Shown here in pieces: positions 2,516 to 13,721 of a DNA stretch of 13,721 bases (position 1 is its first letter; each line of letters begins with the position of its first letter). The DNA is from an uncultured Atopobium sp. (GTDB taxonomy: Bacteria; Actinomycetota; Coriobacteriia; Coriobacteriales; Atopobiaceae). Location of the stretch: NCBI GenBank assembly GCA_946647055.1, contig CAMPCT010000036.1, forward strand, positions 1 through 13,721, given 5' to 3'. The notes under the pieces are model-generated. The model saw nothing but the letters and a program-made list of their open reading frames with translations, made no database searches and was not told the origin of the DNA. A program made the translations under genes and the position numbers.

Positions 2516-4054
2516 ATGAATAAAGATGAGTTCAAGAATCCTGTCTTTCTGTGTGCCCTGGTTCTGTGCGGCGTCATTGCCGTGTGGGCCATCGCATTCA
2601 ACCCGAGCTTCTCTGCAGTCTCCAATGCGATCTTCAGCTTCCTGACTGTCAACTTTGGCTGGCTGTACCTGCTTGCCATGCTCTCTTTCGTCATCTTCTG
2701 CGTCATCCTCGCGTTCTCGAAGTTTGGTGACATCAGGCTTGGTCCGGATGACTCCAGGCCTGAGTACACCACCGTCACCTGGTTCGCCATGCTGTTCGCG
2801 TGCGGCATGGGCGTCGGCCTGGTGTTCTGGGGCATCGCAGAGCCTCTCAGCCACTATGCCAGCCCCATTGCGGGCGTCGAGCCCATGTCTCCTGAGTCCG
2901 CCAAGTTCGCCATGGGGGCCTCGTTCATGCACTGGGGCATCCATCCCTGGGCCAACTACGCCATCATCGGCCTCTGCCTCTCGTACTTCATGTTCCGTAA
3001 GGGCAAGACCGCTCTGATCAGCTCCTCGCTCTATCCCATCATTGGCGAGAAGAACTCCAAGGGTATCCTCGGCACGATCATCGACGTCCTCGCCGTGTTC
3101 GCAACGATGGCGGGCGTCGTCACCTCCTTGGGCCTTGGCGTTCTGCAGATCAACGCAGGCCTCAACTACCTGTTTGGCATTCCCAACAACCTGATCGTCC
3201 AGATCGTCATCCTCGTGGTGGTGTCCTGCGTCTTCATCACCTCCGCCACCGTCGGCATCGACAAGGGCATCGCCAAGCTCTCCGACTTCAACCTCATCGT
3301 TGCCGTCGTCGTGCTTGTCCTGTGCTTCCTCGTCGGCCCCAAGATTGACGCCCTGAACAACCTCGTCTGCGGCCTGGGCGAGTACATCAACAACTTCTTT
3401 GCCGACTCCCTTGCCATGACCGGCTACGGCGACAACAGCTGGATGCTCAGCTGGCGCATCTTCTACTGGGCATGGTGGATCGCATGGGCGCCCTTCGTCG
3501 GCGTCTTCATCGCCCGTATCTCCAAGGGCCGTACCATCCGTGAGTTCATCGCTGGCGTCGTGCTGGTTCCCGCCATCGCATCCCTGCTCTGGTTCTCCGT
3601 CTTTGGCACGCTGGGCCTGACCCTTGCCAACTCTGGCGCCATTGACGCCGAGACCGTCGCTGCGGTCGCCGGCTCGCCCGAGACCGGCCTGTTCGTCGTC
3701 CTCAACATGTATCCGTTCGGCAGGATCCTCTCGATCGTCATCACGATCCTGCTCGCCACGTTCTTCGTCACCTCCGCAGACTCCGGCACCTTCGTCATGG
3801 GCATGCTTTCCTCCAACGGCAACATGAACCCGCCGGCTGCCAAGAAGATCCTGTGGGGTGTCGTCCAGGTCGTCATGGCCATTGGCCTTCTCATGGCAGG
3901 TGGCCTCAAGCCGCTCCAGACGATCTCCATCGCCGCTGCGTTCCCGTTCATCTTCATCATGCTCGCATGCATGGCGTCGCTTGTCGTGGGCCTCATACAT
4001 GACCACGACACGCCCAACGTCGGCGATCCGGACTTCGTTCCCGAGAGCGAGTAG
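2516..4054 (+). CDS. BCCT-family betaine/choline/carnitine transporter
   Basis: This is a 512-aa inner-membrane secondary transporter of the betaine/carnitine/choline family, with about 12 predicted membrane segments. G97-M-G-V-G101, just before FWGIAEPLSHY, matches the GMGIG motif of Na+-coupled members such as BetP. W318-A-W-W-I-A-W324 reproduces the spacing of the BetP tryptophan box that holds the trimethylammonium group. FIARISKGRTIREF is the family signature. The C-terminal tail is short (about 25 residues) and acidic, unlike the long basic osmosensing tail of BetP. That suggests uptake for catabolism rather than osmoprotection. It lies 165 bp after grdH on the same strand, so it likely feeds betaine (or a related quaternary amine) to the reductase. 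The ribosome site is weak: GGGGG at 2506-2510. Exact substrate is inferred. Confidence 0.93.
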   Translation: MNKDEFKNPVFLCALVLCGVIAVWAIAFNPSFSAVSNAIFSFLTVNFGWLYLLAMLSFVIFCVILAFSKFGDIRLGPDDSRPEYTTVTWFAMLFACGMGVGLVFWGIAEPLSHYASPIAGVEPMSPESAKFAMGASFMHWGIHPWANYAIIGLCLSYFMFRKGKTALISSSLYPIIGEKNSKGILGTIIDVLAVFATMAGVVTSLGLGVLQINAGLNYLFGIPNNLIVQIVILVVVSCVFITSATVGIDKGIAKLSDFNLIVAVVVLVLCFLVGPKIDALNNLVCGLGEYINNFFADSLAMTGYGDNSWMLSWRIFYWAWWIAWAPFVGVFIARISKGRTIREFIAGVVLVPAIASLLWFSVFGTLGLTLANSGAIDAETVAAVAGSPETGLFVVLNMYPFGRILSIVITILLATFFVTSADSGTFVMGMLSSNGNMNPPAAKKILWGVVQVVMAIGLLMAGGLKPLQTISIAAAFPFIFIMLACMASLVVGLIHDHDTPNVGDPDFVPESE

Positions 4055-5877: not shown

Positions 5878-5925
5878 ATGTGCGCCCTGCTTGATATGAA
5901 GGAGAAGCGCCATGGAGGCCTCTGA
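5878..5925 (+). CDS. Possible 15-codon leader ORF overlapping the selD start
   Basis: ATG at 5878 is preceded by a strong SD (AGGAGG, 5865-5870, spacing 7) and encodes MCALLDMKEKRHGGL, ending with UGA at 5923-5925. That stop lies 12 bases inside selD in another frame. Its reading covers the selD ribosome-binding site (AAGGAG, 5899-5904), so translating it could open or block selD initiation. It is too short for homology to judge, and it may be a chance ORF. Confidence 0.3.
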   Translation: MCALLDMKEKRHGGL

Positions 5926-6979
5926 GAACAACGAGAAGATCAGGCTCACCAACTATACCTGTCACGGTGGCTGAGCCGCCAAGTGGGCTCCGGGGGAGCT
6001 GGAGGAGATCCTTGCCCAGATAGCCGCGCCGCCCATGGACGCGGATGTGATGCTTGGGTTCGAGACGAGCGACGACTGCGCCGTGTACAAGCTGCGCGAC
6101 GACCTGGTGGCCGTGCTCACGCTCGACTTCTTCACGCCGGTGGTCGACGACCCCTACGAGTTTGGCTGCGTCGCGGCGGCAAACGCCCTCTCCGACGTGT
6201 TCGCCATGGGTGTCAAGCCGCTTGCCGCCCTCAACATCCTGGCGTTCCCCGTCGCGCTGGGCACCAAGGTGGTGGCCGAGGTCATGCGCGGCGGCTCCGA
6301 CAAGGTGCGCGAGGCTGGCGCCTTCATCGTCGGCGGCCACTCCATCGACGACGACGAGCCCAAGTATGGTCTCGCGGTGTTTGGCACCGCCCACCCCGAC
6401 GAGATCCTTCGCAACGGCGGTGCCACCGCCGGTGACGTGCTCTACTACTCCAAGCCCATCGGCATGGGCATCATGAACTCCGCCTTCACGGCAAAGATGG
6501 AGGACGACCAGAGCATGCGTCCCGTCATCGAGGCCATGATGGAGCTCAACCGCTATGCGGCGGAGGCGTTCGAGGGCCTCGACGTGCACGCATGCACTGA
6601 CGTGACCGGCTTTGGCCTGGCAGGCCACCTGCACGAGATGCTCGAGCCCAGCAAGATGGCCGCCATCATCGATTGGGACAGGCTACCGCTGTTCGACAAG
6701 GTGTACGAGTACTCCTCGATTGGCTGCCGCCCCGGGCGTGGCTATGACGTGCAAGACTGGGCGGAGGAGTTCGTCCGCAAGGGGACGCTCTCCGAGGAGG
6801 AGTACAACAACCGCATGGGCGTGCTCTGCGATCCGCAGACGTCAGGCGGCCTCTTGGTCGCCCTGCCGGCGGAGCAGGGTCCTGCCTACGAGGCCAAGTT
6901 CGAGGAGCTGCTTGGTCGCAAGCCCGCGCGCATCGGCGAGATCGTGGACGGTCCCGTCGGCACCATCTTCATCCGCTAG
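5912..6979 (+). CDS. selD: Selenophosphate synthase, itself a selenoprotein (UGA at 5972-5974 = Sec21)
   Basis: SelD makes selenophosphate from selenide and ATP, the selenium donor for Sec-tRNA formation. Read through the in-frame UGA, the protein is 355 aa (E. coli SelD is 347). The catalytic Cys17/Lys20 pair of E. coli corresponds to U21/K24 in CHGGUAAKW. The metal-binding aspartates D51, D68 and D91 correspond to D55, D72 and D95, a constant offset of four. Glycine-rich IVGGHS and the C-terminal DPQTSGGLLVALP are also typical. AAGGAG at 5899-5904 lies 7 nt before the ATG. An ORF call that stops at UGA would start at the internal ATG (6035) and lose the active site. It probably forms a unit with the hydrolase upstream, and it ends only 17 bp from the convergent DUF3841 gene. 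Because SelD needs Sec for its own synthesis, its output depends on existing SelD activity. Confidence 0.96.
5972..6000 (+). promoter_or_regulatory. Bacterial SECIS-like element of selD
   Basis: Downstream of the UGA, GCTCC (5987-5991) pairs perfectly with GGAGC (5995-5999) around a GGG loop (5992-5994), with a possible extra G-U pair (5986/6000). The loop starts 17 nt after the UGA, nearly the same distance as in grdH (18 nt), and is G-rich. The stem is shorter than in grdH. Confidence 0.68.
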
Positions 6980-6996: not shown

Positions 6997-7569
6997 CTAT
7001 CCTTCCGCCTTCAGGGATCGTATCCACTCGCGTCGTATCTCCCAGATGCCAGCCTCGAGGTAGGCATCGGGGCAGCCTTCCGCCGAGTCGAACAGACGCT
7101 GCCAGCTCTGGGTGATCTCGCGCTTGACGGTGGGATAGAACGCCGTGGCAAACGCATCAGACGAGCTCCTGAGGCCCATGGCGACGATGCGCCTCTCGAA
7201 GGCCTCCTCGTCCGCCTCGTCCCTGCCGATGTACTCGAGGTTGAGCATGCGGTTCCAGACCCGTGAGTCGAACAGGATCACCTGGTCCCGGGGCACGGCC
7301 AGCTCGATGAGCGTGCAGCCCGCACCAGCCACGGCCAGGCGCCAGTCACGGAAGCACCAGATGCCGGACTCGGCGCCTTCGGGCGGTGCCACATAGCGGG
7401 GGGCGTTCTGGGCGAAGAACGCATAGGCTTGCCGGAAGACCCAAGACTGGTCGTCATACTTGTGACGGATGTAGTCCCATCTCACCCGCGAGAAGCCATC
7501 GCGCTCGATGGCATCGAGGACGACCTGCGTCTGGGCGGTGTACAGGGTGATGGTCTCGTCACTCCTCAA
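6997..7569 (-). CDS. DUF3841-like protein, second copy of a tandem pair (TTG start)
   Basis: This 190-aa soluble protein resembles the DUF3841 family, whose function is unknown. Family-like features are the N-terminal 'LYTAQTQVVLDAIERDGF' segment, the IELAVPRDQVILFDSRVWNRMLN core and the C-terminal ITQSWQRLFD, which parallels ASWQRVLAG in the neighbour. No catalytic motif, signal peptide or membrane segment is seen. The start is TTG (7569), supported by AAGGAGGT inside the preceding gene with 8 nt spacing; it overlaps that gene's TGA by 11 bp, so translation is probably coupled. There is no in-frame ATG near the N-terminus. It runs against selD, with the two stops 17 bp apart and no clear terminator between them. 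Confidence 0.75.
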   Translation of the reverse strand: MRSDETITLYTAQTQVVLDAIERDGFSRVRWDYIRHKYDDQSWVFRQAYAFFAQNAPRYVAPPEGAESGIWCFRDWRLAVAGAGCTLIELAVPRDQVILFDSRVWNRMLNLEYIGRDEADEEAFERRIVAMGLRSSSDAFATAFYPTVKREITQSWQRLFDSAEGCPDAYLEAGIWEIRREWIRSLKAEG

Positions 7570-8125
7570 AGAACTCGACCTCCTTCACCCACTCGGGCCG
7601 GAGCTCCCAGACGCATCCCACGTTGAGGTCCATGCGCTCGTTGGGGCCGGCCAGCACGCGCTGCCAGCTGGCCTCGATCTTGCGTTTGAGGGCAGGGTAG
7701 TAGTTACCCAGCTCGCCTGAGATGATGGACGCCTCGTTGCCAATGCCCAGCCGTGCCAGCTCCTCGTTGTGCCGGGCCTCGTCAGCGGCGTCCAGTGGCA
7801 CATACCAGAGGTTCACGCGATAGCCCCACTTGTCGTAGTCGAGGACGTAGACGTACTCGTCGGGGATGTCCAGCGTGAGCGAGATGGTGTTGGGGGCAAG
7901 CGGAAGGCGCTGCTCCTCGGTGAGGGCAAGCCAGACGGGGAACTTCGCGTCGACCGGCATGGCCACCTTGCCACGCAACATCTCCGTCAGCCAGCGGTAC
8001 AGGCCTATGTAGTAGTCGGAGATCTCGAGGTTCTTGGCGCGGACGTACTCCTCGCGCACGAGATAGCGACCCGTTGTCTGGAGCTCGTCCCAAACCTGTG
8101 GAACCTGTCGTGTCCAAGCCCTCAT
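7559..8125 (-). CDS. DUF3841 protein, first copy of a tandem pair
   Basis: This 188-aa protein of unknown function has the DUF3841 pattern: N-terminal WTRQVPQVWDELQTTGR, YRWLTEMLR, a central LTLDIPDEYVYVLDYDKW, WYVPL and C-terminal SWQRVLAG. The ATG at 8125 is chosen because GGAGG (complement of 8131-8135) sits 5 nt upstream; the longer 209-aa reading adds residues from the intergenic region with no ribosome site. It ends in TGA, the only UGA terminator among the eleven genes whose ends are in the window. Reading on gives non-homologous sequence, so it is a true stop and not Sec. The two copies are diverged paralogues, probably from an old duplication. Their place inside the Sec locus may be incidental. 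Confidence 0.82.
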   Translation of the reverse strand: MRAWTRQVPQVWDELQTTGRYLVREEYVRAKNLEISDYYIGLYRWLTEMLRGKVAMPVDAKFPVWLALTEEQRLPLAPNTISLTLDIPDEYVYVLDYDKWGYRVNLWYVPLDAADEARHNEELARLGIGNEASIISGELGNYYPALKRKIEASWQRVLAGPNERMDLNVGCVWELRPEWVKEVEFFEE

Positions 8126-8150
8126 TGCAACCTCCGTGAAGCCTGATTGG

Positions 8151-8170
8151 GTTATCATGGCAATGATAAC
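8151..8170. promoter_or_regulatory. 20-bp palindrome, probable operator, between DUF3841 and reductase genes
   Basis: GTTATCAT (8151-8158) and ATGATAAC (8163-8170) form a perfect dyad with a GGCA spacer, 26 bp upstream of the DUF3841 start and 171 bp upstream of the reductase start. Its even centre excludes a symmetric T-N11-A LysR box, so another regulator, or a cruciform, is more likely. The remainder of 8126-8340 shows only a weak -35-like TTGTAA and the hairpin listed next. Confidence 0.5.
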
Positions 8171-8292
8171 AAAGGGACTCAGCGGCATACTCTGCCTTTC
8201 GTGCCATCCGGGTGTCCTTGTAACACGTGAGCCGACGTCTGCATTAGGCCGGCCCTTCCTCTCTGCGAGACAGGCCCAAAACGCATCTTCAT

Positions 8293-8340: not shown

Positions 8341-9510
8341 ATGACAGACCAGGAACTGGCACCCCTGCCCAAGTCGTTCGAGGAGTACAACGAGCAGCGC
8401 AAGGCGAGCTTCTTGAAGGTCAAGGAGTTCAAGGAGCAGGGCGGCCGTCTGGTCGGGTTCCTGTGCTCATACACCCCGCTCGAGGTCATTGACGCCTCGG
8501 GCGCCGCCGCCGTGGGCCTGTGCGGCACGAGCAACGAGACCGTGCCCGTCGCAGAGACCAAGCTCCCCGCCAACCTGTGCCCCCTCATCAAGTCGACCTA
8601 CGGCTTCGCCCTGTCCGACAAGTGCCCCTTCACGTACTTCTCCGACCTCATCGTGGGCGAGACCACCTGCGACGGCAAGAAGAAGATGTACGAGCTCCTG
8701 CGCGACATCAAGGACGTCCACATCCTGCACCTTCCCCAGGGCCAGGACCGCCCGTGGGCAGGTGACGTCTGGTACGAGGAAGTCAAGCTCCTGAAGGAGT
8801 CCCTCGAGGCACGGTATGGCGTGACGATCACCGACGATGACCTCAGGGAGGCCGTGCGCAAGCGCAACCGCCAGCGCCGCGCCATGCTCGCCCTCTACCA
8901 GGCACAGGCGCAGGACCCGGCACCCTTCAGCGGCGTCGAGCTCATGAGCACGATGGCGGCGGGCAACTTCAACTTCGACGTCGAGGCCTACACCCAGAAG
9001 CTCGAGAAGATGGCCGAGGACGCCCAGGCGCGCATCGAGGCGGGCACGGGTGCCGAGGGCATCGCGAAGGGGGCCAAGCGCATCCTGCTCACGGGCTGCC
9101 CCGCGAGCGGTCTCATCAACAAGGTCGGCCGCACCATCGAGCGCAACGGCGGCAACATCGTCTGCCTCGACGACTGCTCCGGCGAGCGCACGATGGGAAT
9201 GATGATCGACGAGGACGCCGACGACATCCTTCGTGCCATCTCCGACCGCTACCTGTCCATCCACTGCTCGGTCATGACCCCCAACACGGGCCGTATGGAG
9301 CACACGCTCGCCCAGGCGCGTCGCTATCATGCCGACGGCGTCGTCGACGCGGTGCTGACCGCCTGCCACACCTTCAACGTCGAGAGCGCGCTCATGCAGG
9401 ACGTGATCGAGGGTGCGGACATCCCCTACATGAAGCTGGAGACCGACTACTCCGAAGGTGACATGGGCCAGCTCGAGACGCGTCTGAGCGCATTTATAGA
9501 GATGCTGTAG
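8341..9510 (+). CDS. Double-cubane-cluster reductase, lone 2-hydroxyacyl-CoA dehydratase D-family subunit (YjiM-like)
   Basis: This 389-aa protein is of the HGD-D family (2-hydroxyglutaryl-CoA dehydratase component D). It stands alone, with no partner subunit or activase (component A) in the window, as in the double-cubane-cluster proteins. Those hold an [8Fe-9S] centre on six cysteines and carry out ATP-dependent low-potential reductions. Spaced cysteines here include C80 (NLCPL), C95 (DKCPF), C110 (TTCDG), C279 (DDCSG), C309 (HCSV) and C342 (TACHTF). These six are plausible ligands, with C42, C61, C253 and C275 in addition. [15 protein letters not shown] and the C-terminal [20 protein letters not shown] are characteristic. 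The start has AGGAG 5 nt upstream. It precedes the LysR gene by 63 bp and sits between selD and selAB. Its substrate is unknown; a role in selenium or sulfur reduction is only suggested by context. Confidence 0.88.
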
Positions 9511-9536
9511 GTATTGGTCGATAGCGAATAGAATGA

Positions 9537-9559
9537 CCAGAGTGGTGACGACGCTCTGG
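9537..9559 (+). promoter_or_regulatory. Hairpin between the reductase and LysR genes
   Basis: CCAGAGTG (9537-9544) and CGCTCTGG (9552-9559) pair over 8 positions with one G-U wobble around a 7-nt loop, ending next to the weak LysR ribosome site (AGGT, 9562-9565). It may limit LysR translation or mark the 3' end of the reductase message; no T-run follows. A wider dyad, TGGTC (9515-9519) with GACCA (9535-9539), overlaps it and might be an autoregulatory site. Confidence 0.35.
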
Positions 9560-9573
9560 ATAGGTATGGCCTT

Positions 9574-10479
9574 ATGGACTTTAAACAGCTACGCTCCTTT
9601 GTCGCGGTGGTTCGCTACGGCAGCTTCACGACTGCCGCGTCAAAGCTGCGTATTTCTCAGCCCACGGTAAGCACGCACATCCGCCAGCTCGAGGAGGAGA
9701 TCGGCGTCCCCCTCGTCCTGCGTAACGCGAAGCACGTGGAGCTCACGGCCAGCGGCTACAAGATGTACGACCAGGTCGTGTCGATGCTCGCCATGCATGA
9801 CAGGATGCTGCAGAGCATGAAGCGGCACGACAGCGACGCCGTGTATCTGGGTGCGTCGACCATCCCCTCGGGCTACGTCCTGCCCGACATCATCGCGTCG
9901 TTCTGTGCATCGAGGCCCGAGGTGCAGTTCGCCGTCACGCAGGGCTCGAGCCAAACCGTCATGAACGGAATGCTCTCTGGCCTGTATGACCTGGGGTTCG
10001 TTGGGATGCCCGCTAGGGATGACTCCCTCGACTGCGTGCCGTTCTGCGATGACAAGATCGTCATCGCAACGGCAAACAGCAAGCGCTTCCGCTCCATCGA
10101 CCGCAACGACCCCGAGGTCCTCGCGAACATGCTGAGGACCGAGCGCGTCATCATGCGCAATGCCGACAGCGCGACCCGTGCCATGGGCAACAGCCTCCTC
10201 GAGCAGCTGGGACTTGACGAGAGCGACCTGTCCGTCTTCGCGCACCTGGACGACCAGGAGGCCACGAAGAGCCTGATCGAGCGGGGCCTCGGCATCGCCA
10301 TCATGTCCGAGCGGTCCGTGCGCGGCAGGGTCGATGGCGGGTGGATGCTCTCGTTCGACGTTCCCGGGGTGGAGGTGACGCGGAAGCTGTATGTCATCAA
10401 GCGGAGGAACGTGCTGCTGAGCGATGCCGCGGAGGCGTTCTACAGCCACGTCGTCGACCATGTGGCCAACGTGGACTAG
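9574..10479 (+). CDS. LysR-family transcriptional regulator within the Sec locus
   Basis: This 301-aa regulator has the standard LysR layout. An N-terminal winged helix-turn-helix spans about residues 1-60 (MDFKQLRSFVAVVRYGSFTTAA, then LRISQPTVSTHIRQLEEEIG). A linker helix follows, then a periplasmic-binding-protein-like effector domain at about 90-295 (YLGASTIPSGYVLPDIIASF, GLYDLGFVGMP). The ligand cannot be read from sequence. It lies 63 bp after the reductase gene and 129 bp before selA, all on the + strand. That position makes it a candidate regulator of the reductase, selAB and perhaps the hydrolase/selD unit. LysR-like genes near Sec machinery have been noted in comparative genomics (from memory, not checked). 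The start at 9574 has only a weak SD. Confidence 0.92.
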   Translation: MDFKQLRSFVAVVRYGSFTTAASKLRISQPTVSTHIRQLEEEIGVPLVLRNAKHVELTASGYKMYDQVVSMLAMHDRMLQSMKRHDSDAVYLGASTIPSGYVLPDIIASFCASRPEVQFAVTQGSSQTVMNGMLSGLYDLGFVGMPARDDSLDCVPFCDDKIVIATANSKRFRSIDRNDPEVLANMLRTERVIMRNADSATRAMGNSLLEQLGLDESDLSVFAHLDDQEATKSLIERGLGIAIMSERSVRGRVDGGWMLSFDVPGVEVTRKLYVIKRRNVLLSDAAEAFYSHVVDHVANVD

Positions 10480-10523
10480 TGCGTGCCGAGATACTCCTTG
10501 GGGGGACACCAAACGTCCATCCT

Positions 10524-10545
10524 CGGACTGTCCTAAAATGGTCCG
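10524..10545. promoter_or_regulatory. Inverted repeat upstream of selA
   Basis: CGGAC (10524-10528) and GTCCG (10541-10545) form a 5-bp dyad with a 12-bp spacer. It lies just upstream of the TATAAT element at 10562, where an activator would bind. The repeat is short enough to be chance in GC-rich DNA. Confidence 0.25.
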
Positions 10546-10561
10546 CACATGGAAGAACATT

Positions 10562-10576
10562 TATAATCACGATTAT
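10562..10576 (+). promoter_or_regulatory. Candidate selA -10 element overlapped by a perfect palindrome
   Basis: TATAAT (10562-10567) is a perfect -10 match, 42 bp before the preferred selA start. No good -35 lies 16-18 bp upstream (TGGTCC at best), so activation by a regulator is plausible. ATAATC (10563-10568) and GATTAT (10571-10576) form a perfect dyad with spacer AC on top of it, a position suited to repression. The rest of 10480-10608 shows nothing further that I can call. Confidence 0.45.
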
Positions 10577-10608
10577 GCTTGTCAATACTGAGACCGTAGG
10601 AGCGAATG

Positions 10609-12042
10609 ATGACCCCGCCCGTCAACACAAAACTGTTCAGGCAGCTTCCCCAGGTCGAGGAAGTGCTGCATGACGAGGCGCTTGCCTCGATCAAGGACGT
10701 CCCGCGCGACGTCGCGACGAGCGCAGTTCGCGCCGAGGTCGACGCACGTCGCCAGCAGATCATGGACGGGGAGACGCCGGAGCTCAGCCTGAAGGACATC
10801 GCCCGCGCCGCCGCCGCCCGCGTGCAGCTGCTCACGGCACCGTCACTCAGGCGCGTCGTCAACGCCTCGGGCGTCATCATCCACACCAACCTCGGCCGCA
10901 GCGCCTTGGCCGAGGAGGCCGTCGCCGCCGTCAACGAGGTCATCGTCGGCTACTCCACGCTCGAGTACGACCGCAAGACCATGTCCCGCGGCAGCCGCCA
11001 CGACCACTGCGAGTCGCTCATCTGCACGCTGACCGGTGCCGAGGCGGCCATCGCGGTGAACAACAACGCCGCCGCCGTCATGATGGTCCTCTCCACCTTC
11101 GCCGCCGGCCACGACGCCATCGTGTCGCGTGGCGAGCAGGTCGAGATTGGCGGGTCCTTCCGCATCCCCGACATCATGCAGCAGTCCCATGCCCACATGA
11201 TCGAGGTGGGTGCCACCAACAAGACGCACCTGAGCGACTACGAGCGTGCCTTGACCGACGACACCGCCATGATGCTCAAGGTGCACCCGTCCAACTACCG
11301 TATGACGGGCTTTACCGAGTCGGTGTCCATCCGCGACCTGCACAACCTCGCCCTCGAGCACGAGAAGAACACCGGCAAGAAGGTGCTTGTCTACGAGGAC
11401 CAGGGCTCTGGCGCCTTCCTGAGGCTCGCGGCGTTTGGCAAGTACGCCGAGCCTGCCGTGGCCGAGTCCCTCGCCGCCGGTGCCGACATCGTCTCCTTCT
11501 CCGGGGACAAGCTTCTGGGCGGCCCCCAGGCGGGCATCATCGTCGGCCGCGCTGACCTCATTGCCAAGCTCAAGAAGAGCCCGCTCGCCCGTGCGCTGCG
11601 CCTCGACAAGATGACCCTCGCCGCCCTCGAGGCGACCCTGCGCATCTACCTGCACCCCGAGAAGGCCATGACCCGCATCCCGACGGTGCGCATGCTCGTG
11701 GAGACCGCCGAGGACGTGCGCGTGCGCGCCTGCAAGCTGCTCGACACCGTCGCGAAGCACCTTGACCCCAATATGGCCGAGCTCGACATCGTGGAGGAGA
11801 CGTCCCGCGCGGGCGGCGGAGCGCTGCCGATGTGCGACATCCCCACCTACGCGATGCGCCTGCGCTTCCACAAGGGCAACGCCCAGGACTGCGAGCGCTT
11901 CCTCGTGCAGGAGTCCCCGATCATCGTCATCGCCCGCATCCACGACGAGTCGATCCTCTTCGATGCGAGGACCATCCTCGACGACGAGGAGATGACGGCG
12001 ATCGCGCTGGGCCTCTCCATGTACTTCGACAAGATCTCGTAA
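10609..12042 (+). CDS. selA: L-seryl-tRNA(Sec) selenium transferase (selenocysteine synthase)
   Basis: SelA is a PLP enzyme that converts seryl-tRNA(Sec) to selenocysteyl-tRNA(Sec) using selenophosphate. The 477-aa protein (E. coli SelA is 463) shows the N-terminal LRRVVNASGVIIHTNLGRS block, NNNAAAVM, and the PLP-lysine motif SFSGDKLLGGPQAGI, with the lysine codon at 11509-11511 (K301). The C-terminal domain ends in ALGLSMYF. Two ATGs stand in tandem at 10606 and 10609. AGGAG at 10598-10602 is 3 nt from the first and 6 nt from the second, so the second is preferred. selB follows 33 bp later in the same direction, the usual selAB operon. Confidence 0.96.
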   Translation: MTPPVNTKLFRQLPQVEEVLHDEALASIKDVPRDVATSAVRAEVDARRQQIMDGETPELSLKDIARAAAARVQLLTAPSLRRVVNASGVIIHTNLGRSALAEEAVAAVNEVIVGYSTLEYDRKTMSRGSRHDHCESLICTLTGAEAAIAVNNNAAAVMMVLSTFAAGHDAIVSRGEQVEIGGSFRIPDIMQQSHAHMIEVGATNKTHLSDYERALTDDTAMMLKVHPSNYRMTGFTESVSIRDLHNLALEHEKNTGKKVLVYEDQGSGAFLRLAAFGKYAEPAVAESLAAGADIVSFSGDKLLGGPQAGIIVGRADLIAKLKKSPLARALRLDKMTLAALEATLRIYLHPEKAMTRIPTVRMLVETAEDVRVRACKLLDTVAKHLDPNMAELDIVEETSRAGGGALPMCDIPTYAMRLRFHKGNAQDCERFLVQESPIIVIARIHDESILFDARTILDDEEMTAIALGLSMYFDKIS

Positions 12043-12075: not shown

Positions 12076-13721
12076 ATGGGTGCGCTCCAGCAGCCAAACC
12101 TCGTCCTGGGTACGGCCGGTCACATCGATCACGGCAAGTCGTCGCTGGTGCTTGCCCTGACCGGGAAGGATCCCGACCGCCTGGTGGAGGAGAAGAAGCG
12201 CGGCATCACCATCGAGCTCGGCTTTGCCCAGCTCGACCTGGGAGATGGTCGCGCCATGGGCGTCGTCGACGTGCCTGGTCACGAGAAGTTCGTTCGCCAG
12301 ATGATCGCCGGATCCACCGGCATCGACGTCGCCCTGCTGGTCATCGCCGCAGACGACGGCGTCATGCCCCAGACCCTCGAGCACCTTGCGGTCCTGCAGA
12401 CGCTGGGCGTTCCCACCTGCGTGGTGGCACTCACCAAGATCGACCTGTGCGACCCCGACTGGGTCGAGCTCGTCACCGAGGACGTCCGCGCCCTGCTCGC
12501 GACCACCCCGTTCGCGGACGCCCCCATCGTGCCCTGCTCGAGCCGTACGGGAGAGGGCGTCGAGGACGTCCGCGCGGCGCTGGCAAAGGTGAGCAAGAAC
12601 GCCGAGGCGCTGCACCGCGGCAGTGCCATGCGCCAGCCGGTCGACCGCGTGTTCAGCATACGCGGCGCGGGCACGGTCATCACCGGCACCCTGTGGAGCG
12701 GCGAGGTCCGCCCAGGCGACACCGTCGAGATCCTTCCCCAGAAGAGGCAGTGCCGCATCCGTTCGGTGCAGATGCACGACAAGCCCGTCGACGTGGCGCT
12801 GGCCGGCAACCGCGTCGCCCTCAACCTCGTCGACGTGAAGACCGACGAGATCCGCCCCGGCGACTTCCTGGCGACTCCCGGCCTCATCGAGCCCACGACG
12901 CGCTTTGACGCGCGCTTCACCTACCTCGACACTGCCAAGAGCGGCAAGCCCCTCGAGAGCGGTGCCCGCATGCACGTGTCCCATGGCACCAAGGAGGTCT
13001 TGGGCCGCGTCCTGTTCGCCAACAGGCTCGAGCGGCTCTCGCCAGGCGAGAGCTGCTTCGCCCAGATCCGCCTCGAGGAGCCGCTGCCCGTCTCGCTGGG
13101 CGACCGCTACATCGTGCGGACCTACTCCCCCGTGCACGTCGCCGGCGGTGGGCAGATCCTGCAGGCGCATCCCCGCGCGAGCACCAACCTGCACGACAAC
13201 GAGGTGGCCGTCCTCGAGGCCCTCGCGTCCGGCGACCGTCAAGCCGCCGTCAGGAACCTGCTCGGGCACCTCACCGTCCCGCTGACGGCGCATGACCTCG
13301 CCGTGCAGTTTGGCATCGACGAGGCCTCAGCCCGCGAGCTGCTGCAGAACGAGGTCGATGCCCGCCGTGGCTGCAAGGTGGGGGAGGAGTGGTTCACCAC
13401 GCCCTCGACGCTCAGCAGGTCGGTCTCTGCCATCAAGAACGAGCTCATGTCCTTCCATGCCGACAACCCCTCCAAGCCAGGCCTCCAGAAGGAGGAGCTG
13501 CGCCAGCGCTGCCTGCCGCACCTGGACGCGGCGTGCTTCGACGCGATCTTGTCCGAGGCGGTCGCCGCAAAGGTGGCCGTGGTCGTGGGCGGCCTCGTCG
13601 GCCACCCGTCCGCGCAGGGTGCGGCGAAGGCGGCCGAGGACGACGCGGCAGCAAGGCTCTCCGCCGCCCTCAAGGCGTACGGGCTCACCCCGCCGCCGCT
13701 CGCCGAGCTCACGAAGGAGGC
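12076..13721 (+). CDS. selB: Selenocysteine-specific elongation factor, 3' truncated by the window
   Basis: SelB is the GTPase that carries Sec-tRNA to the ribosome and binds SECIS hairpins with its C-terminal winged helices. 548 codons are present with no stop, against about 620-640 aa for the family, so the last winged-helix region is missing. The G domain has G1 G15-H-I-D-H-G-K-S22, G2 RGITIELG (42-49), G3 D65-V-P-G-H69 and G4 T120-K-I-D123. EF-Tu-like domains II and III follow (VFSIRGAGTVITGTLWSG; LGDRYIVRTYSP). The winged-helix part then begins near residue 375, with helix-rich segments such as LTAHDLAVQFGIDEASARELL. The ribosome site is weak (AGGTG, 12066-12070, spacing 5), consistent with coupling to selA 33 bp upstream. 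The frame stays open to the window edge, so it is easily missed by calls that need a stop. Confidence 0.95.
   Translation, partial: MGALQQPNLVLGTAGHIDHGKSSLVLALTGKDPDRLVEEKKRGITIELGFAQLDLGDGRAMGVVDVPGHEKFVRQMIAGSTGIDVALLVIAADDGVMPQTLEHLAVLQTLGVPTCVVALTKIDLCDPDWVELVTEDVRALLATTPFADAPIVPCSSRTGEGVEDVRAALAKVSKNAEALHRGSAMRQPVDRVFSIRGAGTVITGTLWSGEVRPGDTVEILPQKRQCRIRSVQMHDKPVDVALAGNRVALNLVDVKTDEIRPGDFLATPGLIEPTTRFDARFTYLDTAKSGKPLESGARMHVSHGTKEVLGRVLFANRLERLSPGESCFAQIRLEEPLPVSLGDRYIVRTYSPVHVAGGGQILQAHPRASTNLHDNEVAVLEALASGDRQAAVRNLLGHLTVPLTAHDLAVQFGIDEASARELLQNEVDARRGCKVGEEWFTTPSTLSRSVSAIKNELMSFHADNPSKPGLQKEELRQRCLPHLDAACFDAILSEAVAAKVAVVVGGLVGHPSAQGAAKAAEDDAAARLSAALKAYGLTPPPLAELTKE

Follow-up and report, generated by a model that had tools for sequence, protein, structure and literature searches.

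Why would a gene for a double-cubane-cluster protein (DCCP), a reductase of the HGD-D family, stand with a LysR-type regulator gene between the selenium genes selD and selA? The question is raised by a 13,721-nt stretch of DNA from an uncultured Atopobium sp. (contig CAMPCT010000036.1), referred to here, at its full length, as the window. The initial annotation had placed an HGD-D-family reductase and a LysR regulator on the same strand before selA, which was borne out by the open reading frames (ORFs) and family scores obtained in this study, and had offered two roles for the reductase, i.e. reduction of selenium compounds to selenide or activation of selenocysteine (Sec) enzymes. The comparisons presented here revealed that DCCP tracks selD rather than selA. 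The link of DCCP to selenium is well supported as a correlation, and the selenium interpretation gains strength, its focus shifting from Sec to SelD, the selenophosphate synthetase.

The DCCP of the window was identified by profile search, scoring 489.1 bits against a cut-off of 350 bits for NF040772, and was also shown to match the HGD-D family PF06050 (365 bits). It was aligned to the solved double-cubane protein 6eno_A with 272 bits over 361 residues, and eight cysteines (42, 61, 80, 95, 110, 279, 309 and 342) were kept in 209-212 of 212 aligned sequences and aligned with 6eno_A. This alignment comprised the window protein, 210 distinct sequences taken from fetched loci, of which two are distant outgroups, and, for a second time, Escherichia coli YjiM. 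Identity as an (R)-2-hydroxyacyl-CoA dehydratase or benzoyl-CoA reductase was rejected, as the scores for HadC (89.8 against a cut-off of 700 bits), BzdN (79 against 453.8 bits) and BcrC (78.9 against 421 bits) were far too low. The solved protein (6ENO, 7YYL) is, we presume, that of Carboxydothermus hydrogenoformans; the sequence likeness of the window DCCP to it lies in the family and the eight aligned cysteines, whereas the window DCCP has a shorter N-terminus and no adjoining activase gene. No tblastn match to an activase (13 seeds), YedF (12 seeds) or the DUF3343 carrier (7 seeds; presumably the older name of the PF11823 Se_S_carrier family) was obtained in the 13.7-kb window, and the activase gene may be located elsewhere in the genome. 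Nine seeds of a lyase-like gene returned a single weak match (32 bits), inside selA.

To relate DCCP to selenium genes, three genome samples were compared: 109 genomes from the class of Eggerthella sinensis (which we take to be Coriobacteriia; sample 1, the only one with a completeness filter, of 90), 118 from the class of Tissierella praeacuta (sample 2) and 129 from the phylum of Colibacter massiliensis (sample 3). In sample 1, where DCCP was found in 45 genomes and selD in 90, selD was present in 45/45 genomes with DCCP, compared with 45/64 without it (Fisher 1.4e-5). The corresponding figures were 9/9 versus 12/109 in sample 2 (DCCP in 9 genomes, selD in 21; Fisher 3.3e-8) and 47/48 versus 44/81 in sample 3 (DCCP in 48, selD in 91; Fisher 1.6e-8). 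A lack of co-occurrence with Sec genes, the outcome on which the initial annotation would have given up its proposal, is thus not what these samples display. When the samples were pooled, 101 of the 102 DCCP genomes carried selD, and DCCP was detected in just one (G373) of the 154 genomes lacking selD (19, 97 and 38 per sample). At least two genomes are shared by samples 2 and 3, namely G171 (neither gene) and G175 (selD, no DCCP), and are consequently counted twice in the pooled 154 selD-less and 202 selD-positive genomes. Matches below the cut-off were omitted from the DCCP counts, e.g. those of G182 (270 bits, no selD) and G345 (211 bits, selD present).

The association did not extend to Sec as such. 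While selA, found in 65 of the 109 sample-1 genomes, was present in 32/45 DCCP genomes as opposed to 33/64 others (p 0.049), the difference disappeared among the 90 selD-positive genomes (32/45 with and 33/45 without DCCP). Of the 45 DCCP genomes, 13 lack selA, and 12 of these 13 (all except G076) carry yqeB, a gene found in 26 genomes of the sample. A Sec-specific role was therefore rejected as the leading explanation, given that selD, not selA, predicts DCCP. The selenium link proposed in the initial annotation thus holds through selD and is not specific to Sec; of the two roles offered there, activation of Sec enzymes is the weaker, because DCCP follows selD and not Sec, and reduction of selenium to selenide would fit better.

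A general effect of HGD-D proteins was considered as an explanation and judged insufficient on the basis of a PF06050 control in sample 2, in which 25 genomes were matched; 16 of these lack DCCP, and 11 of the 16 lack selD. In 14 named control genomes, DCCP and selD were both matched in the same two, i.e. E. coli and Methanocaldococcus jannaschii.

Gene order in sample 1 was consistent with the co-occurrence: at a distance of up to 10 kb, 22 of 58 DCCP genes have selD, 27 a full-length YedF gene and 4 selA as a neighbour, where by our own arithmetic random placement in a 2.2-Mb genome would yield ~1%. The neighbour regions fetched for this sample (L081-L120) cover 36 of the 45 DCCP genomes, the others being represented by coordinates or by the first 80 loci. 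In sample 2, an activase was found in nine of ten loci and a selenium gene in seven of ten. Within 5 kb of DCCP in the 57 loci of sample 3, an activase was observed in 40, DUF3343 in 13, a lyase-like gene in 7, YedF in 6, and selA together with selB in one; any of SelD, SelA, YedF, DUF3343 or lyase was encoded in 17 of the 57.

Phylogenetic comparison of the 212 sequences using FastTree placed the window DCCP in a 30-member clade (support 0.984). The first 80 loci are the best matches of a longer list and therefore biased; they informed the analysis of clades and neighbours but not that of co-occurrence. Among the matches listed, 28 of the 29 other clade members have an activase gene (BadF/BcrA family) within 10 kb, so that the reductase, called 'lone' in the initial annotation, is lone within the window and not among its relatives. 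A gene for SelD, SelA, YedF, DUF3343 or a cysteine-desulfurase/Sec-lyase-like enzyme lies within 10 kb in 26 of the 29, the exceptions being L001, L010 (where the contig ends soon after DCCP) and L015. The block typical of these relatives consists of DCCP, activase, (SelD), YedF, DUF3343 and lyase; the lyase neighbours are tblastn similarities among which ordinary cysteine desulfurases may be included, and that of L002 scored above the cut-off of TIGR01977 (422 against 377) and below that of SclA (351 against 525). The closest relative among the matches listed, L009, presents an activase-like stretch at the contig end, followed by DCCP, a single L,D-transpeptidase gene and, on the opposite strand, SelD. 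In four genomes (L081-L084), a block of activase, DUF3343, lyase, YedF and a second type of DCCP is inserted, in inverted orientation, between selD and selAB, i.e. in the position taken by the one DCCP gene of the window. Of the first 80 loci, 37 were chosen for a selA check, and selA was found in 28 of the 36 searchable genomes.

What follows is our inference as to substrate, partner contacts, regulation and the direction in which electrons flow. In this superfamily, an ATP-driven activase gives single low-potential electrons to an HGD-D-type protein. DCCP may accordingly be an ATP-driven reductase that helps to provide reduced selenium to SelD, within a selenium-utilisation module of which the LysR regulator would also be part, a proposal to which we assign as much weight for as against. 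An ATP-hydrolysing activase, which in this genome would need to be encoded outside the window, would drive DCCP. DCCP in turn would hand very-low-potential electrons to selenium in an oxidised or zero-valent form, probably bound to a carrier or lyase (DUF3343, YedF or a Sec-lyase-like enzyme), and the resulting selenide would feed SelD. The regulator would tune expression of DCCP and/or selAB to selenium status. The related benzoyl-CoA reductase is reported to achieve reduction steps below -600 mV (PMC11971306). As SelD, carriers and a Sec-lyase-like enzyme recur as neighbours, the simplest use of such a reductase would be the reduction of selenium to the state that SelD needs. By supplying selenide to SelD, DCCP would serve several selenophosphate uses, beyond selenocysteine.

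Several observations weigh against this proposal. DCCP is present in 101 of the 202 selD genomes, and is therefore dispensable for selenium use; an extra supply route (e.g. from Se(0) or oxidised carriers) would fit this better than an essential step. One genome, G373 (at least 155 contigs), has DCCP and no selD match. The Fisher tests take no account of shared ancestry, and among DCCP-negative genomes of sample 2 the other HGD-D proteins displayed a weak selD excess of their own (5/16 versus 7/93, p 0.015). In the 14 control genomes, PF06050 matched the same two as DCCP, which is thus inseparable there from HGD-D proteins generally. In sample 3, selD was located within 10 kb of only 1 of 60 DCCP genes (based on selD matches on contigs shared with DCCP), and 40 of the 57 loci, some of them cut by contig ends, have none of the above selenium genes within 5 kb, indicating that tight clustering is frequent only in sample 1 and among those loci that are nearest to the window. 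A more distant activase accompanies the second DCCP type of sample 1 (L085-L109 except L092 and L107), which is mostly encoded away from selD. Finally, the reduction potential of H2Se has been described as near that of H2 (PMC5187540), and no extreme reductant is demanded per se.

An alternative, which we regard as unlikely, is that DCCP and its activase, instead of feeding SelD, reductively activate or repair selenoenzymes such as formate dehydrogenase, GrdH or selenium-dependent molybdenum hydroxylases. A very strong reductant would suit repair, the grdH gene in the window has both a Sec codon and a selenocysteine insertion sequence (SECIS), and in L009 a molybdopterin-oxidoreductase gene (PF04879) is located ~3 kb beyond DCCP, past selD. 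Yet DCCP follows selD both in selA genomes and in yqeB genomes without selA, and no single selenoenzyme type accounts for a pattern that spans the two, an argument whose weight is limited by the fact that grdE and grdH were the only selenoenzyme neighbours looked for.

A selenium-independent reductive task, such as the detoxification of small molecules, with the overlap with selD arising only from shared anaerobic lineages, is decidedly improbable. Acetylene, hydrazine and azide are reduced by the characterised DCCP, and the physiological relevance of these activities has been called unclear (PMC11971306); the 40 sample-3 loci lacking a selenium neighbour, the tests uncorrected for ancestry and the weak selD excess of other HGD-D proteins point in the same direction. 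Within the Tissierella class, however, selD is present in just 21 of 118 genomes and yet in all nine with DCCP, other HGD-D proteins track selD less tightly, and selenium genes are recurrent neighbours in unrelated lineages, including E. coli. Equally improbable is a salvage pathway with corrinoid methyltransferases in which organic selenium (or sulfur) compounds, methylated or otherwise, would be the substrates of DCCP. It is suggested by mlp methyltransferase clusters that contain DCCP and its reductase alongside selD, selR and grd genes and for which methyl-selenium metabolism has been proposed (PMC10418091), whereas the clusters analysed here carry Sec-lyase-like enzymes and carriers (methyltransferase genes being outside the neighbour search).

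The provision of reduced selenium to SelD may also apply to E. coli. In strain K-12 MG1655 (L189, 5669-7851), yjiM, yjiL and ytiA are contiguous; YjiM exceeds the NF040772 cut-off at 531 bits, YjiL is an activase and YtiA matches PF11823 Se_S_carrier (48.9 bits against a cut-off of 25), a family also matched by the protein termed DUF3343 here, while the K-12 annotation of the three genes consists of putative or uncharacterized labels only. The window shares with this locus a DCCP gene, to which E. coli adds an adjoining activase gene and a Se/S-carrier-like gene; no sel gene is present among the annotated features in the 18 kb covered. In one table of a LysR-mutant comparison, yjiM and yjiL shift in the same way as hyc and hyb genes (PMC9068703). 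We tentatively put forward the possibility, to which we give a minor share of our confidence, that the ATP-driven reductase so far missing for selenide formation in many anaerobes and in E. coli is DCCP with its activase (in the latter, YjiM-YjiL, with YtiA as carrier), which would reduce carrier-bound or elemental selenium for SelD. How SelD receives selenium in its reduced, toxic form is generally little understood. The double-cubane protein, in turn, is a nitrogenase-like reductant without an accepted physiological role (PMC11971306). The near-perfect dependence of DCCP on selD in three samples joins both questions, in a form testable even in E. coli K-12: if the possibility holds, the double-cubane protein would gain a physiological function and SelD one natural selenium donor.

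The link to selenium is already in print as a suggestion, and the arrangement of the genes has a precedent. Lin et al. 2015 (PMC5322559) named LysR_Se, YedF, YedE and DUF3343 as candidates; in their Table 1 for Slackia heliotrinireducens, LysR has as its first partner a 2-hydroxyglutaryl-CoA dehydratase subunit, and an activase is a partner of YedF, YedE and DUF3343. By locus tags, Shel_25300-25360 in that table (selB-selA-LysR-2-hydroxyglutaryl-CoA dehydratase-...-selD) agree with the window in these genes and in their order; Shel_25330 is known here by its table label, and the comparison is one of locus-tag order. The words 'hydroxyglutaryl' and 'dehydratase' each occur twice in the paper as covered here, and both uses of the former are inside Table 1, so the gene does not appear to be discussed in that text. 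A 2023 preprint describes the dicubane protein as 'provisionally linked' to selenium metabolism, and one of its figure legends mentions DCCP and its reductase together with selR and sel genes (PMC10418091). With a named LysR family, the Table 1 neighbourhood and the preprint, 'undescribed', as the initial annotation termed the system, was too strong. Words beginning with hydroxyglutaryl or dehydratase were absent from two 2008 selenium papers and a 2016 survey. Among the matches listed, titles and abstracts tying DCCP, yjiM or ytiA to selenium were limited to Lin et al. 2015 and the preprint, and no earlier statement of the quantified selD dependence, the Sec independence, the specificity control or the E. 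coli carrier neighbour was found in them, most subscription journals lying outside this literature.

The window encodes, from left to right, a component B subunit, grdH, a BCCT transporter, a radical SAM protein, an MBL-fold protein, selD, two DUF3841 proteins, DCCP, LysR, selA and selB (Table 1). The order 'between selD and selAB' given in the initial annotation was therefore retained, with the qualification that the minus-strand DUF3841 pair separates selD from DCCP (distance ~1.4 kb), while on the other side DCCP adjoins LysR and selA.

Table 1. Coordinates, strand and supporting evidence of selected genes and candidate sites in the window
Feature	Coordinates	Strand	Evidence
DCCP, HGD-D family, 389 aa	8341..9510	+	NF040772, 6eno_A alignment, eight conserved cysteines
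Selenium-metabolism LysR regulator (LysR_Se / HrsM type), 301 aa	9574..10479	+	NF040786, 263 bits
selA	10606..12042	+	TIGR00474, 545 bits
selB, Sec-specific elongation factor, open at window end	12076..13719	+	TIGR00475, 321 bits
selD, selenophosphate synthetase, in-frame TGA (U21) when start = 5912	5912..6979	+	TIGR00476, 332 bits on 6035-6976
Two overlapping DUF3841 genes (6997-7569, 7559-8188)	6997..8188	-	PF12952, 194 + 172 bits
Perfect inverted repeat GTTATCAT-4-ATGATAAC, candidate regulator site upstream of DCCP	8151..8170	.	With ≤3 mismatches, match in 2/200 shuffles
Inverted repeat ATAATC-2-GATTAT, LysR-selA gap, candidate regulator site	10563..10576	.	0/200 shuffles matched; pattern picked post hoc from sequence
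Inverted repeat CCAGAG-11-CTCTGG, DCCP-LysR gap, weak candidate	9537..9559	.	

The LysR protein of the window exceeds the curated NF040786 cut-off (263.4 against 250 bits) and its gene adjoins selA, in which it resembles LysR_Se and HrsM; it differs in directly following a DCCP gene. HrsM of Methanococcus, a relative within NF040786, is an experimentally studied selenium-dependent repressor (PMC11097638) and the archaeal ortholog of LysR_Se (PMC5322559). In sample 1, LysR_Se (E ≤ 1e-55) was found in 57 of 109 genomes, mostly away from DCCP. In sample 3, a search with a hidden Markov model built on LysR_Se seeds, by which some may be missed, detected it above the cut-off in 5 of 57 loci, no further than 1.6 kb from DCCP, with L149 slightly below the cut-off (241 bits). 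No exact copy of the inverted repeat upstream of DCCP was present in the 189 fetched loci, and the repeat therefore gives no support to a shared operator. A scan for promoters and terminators yielded no signal exceeding that of shuffles.

The selD ORF call begins at 6035, and an upstream reading from 5912 is possible if TGA is read as U, giving the motif CHGGUAAK. As this TGA occupies the catalytic position, the SelD of the window is probably itself a selenoprotein, as judged from the motif. An internal TGA was observed in 68 of the 90 selD matches of sample 1. At 1-2121 and 2516-4054, a cluster of the betaine-reductase type is encoded, comprising a component B subunit gene (PF09338), grdH and a BCCT transporter gene (PF02028); grdH is read through a TGA (U363, GSTUGTCTRC), directly after which a SECIS_4 match of 51.7 bits was found. 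DUF3841-like similarity was also detected in L056, close to DCCP, and in L120, at the edge of the locus. In sample 1, DCCP-activase pairs of the second group have ORFs similar to AIR carboxylase (PF00731) and to a nickel-insertion protein (PF01969) close by (e.g. L093 13052-13915 and L105 2955-4274), presumably larB and larC; such ORFs were observed in 15 and 14 of 36 loci, respectively.

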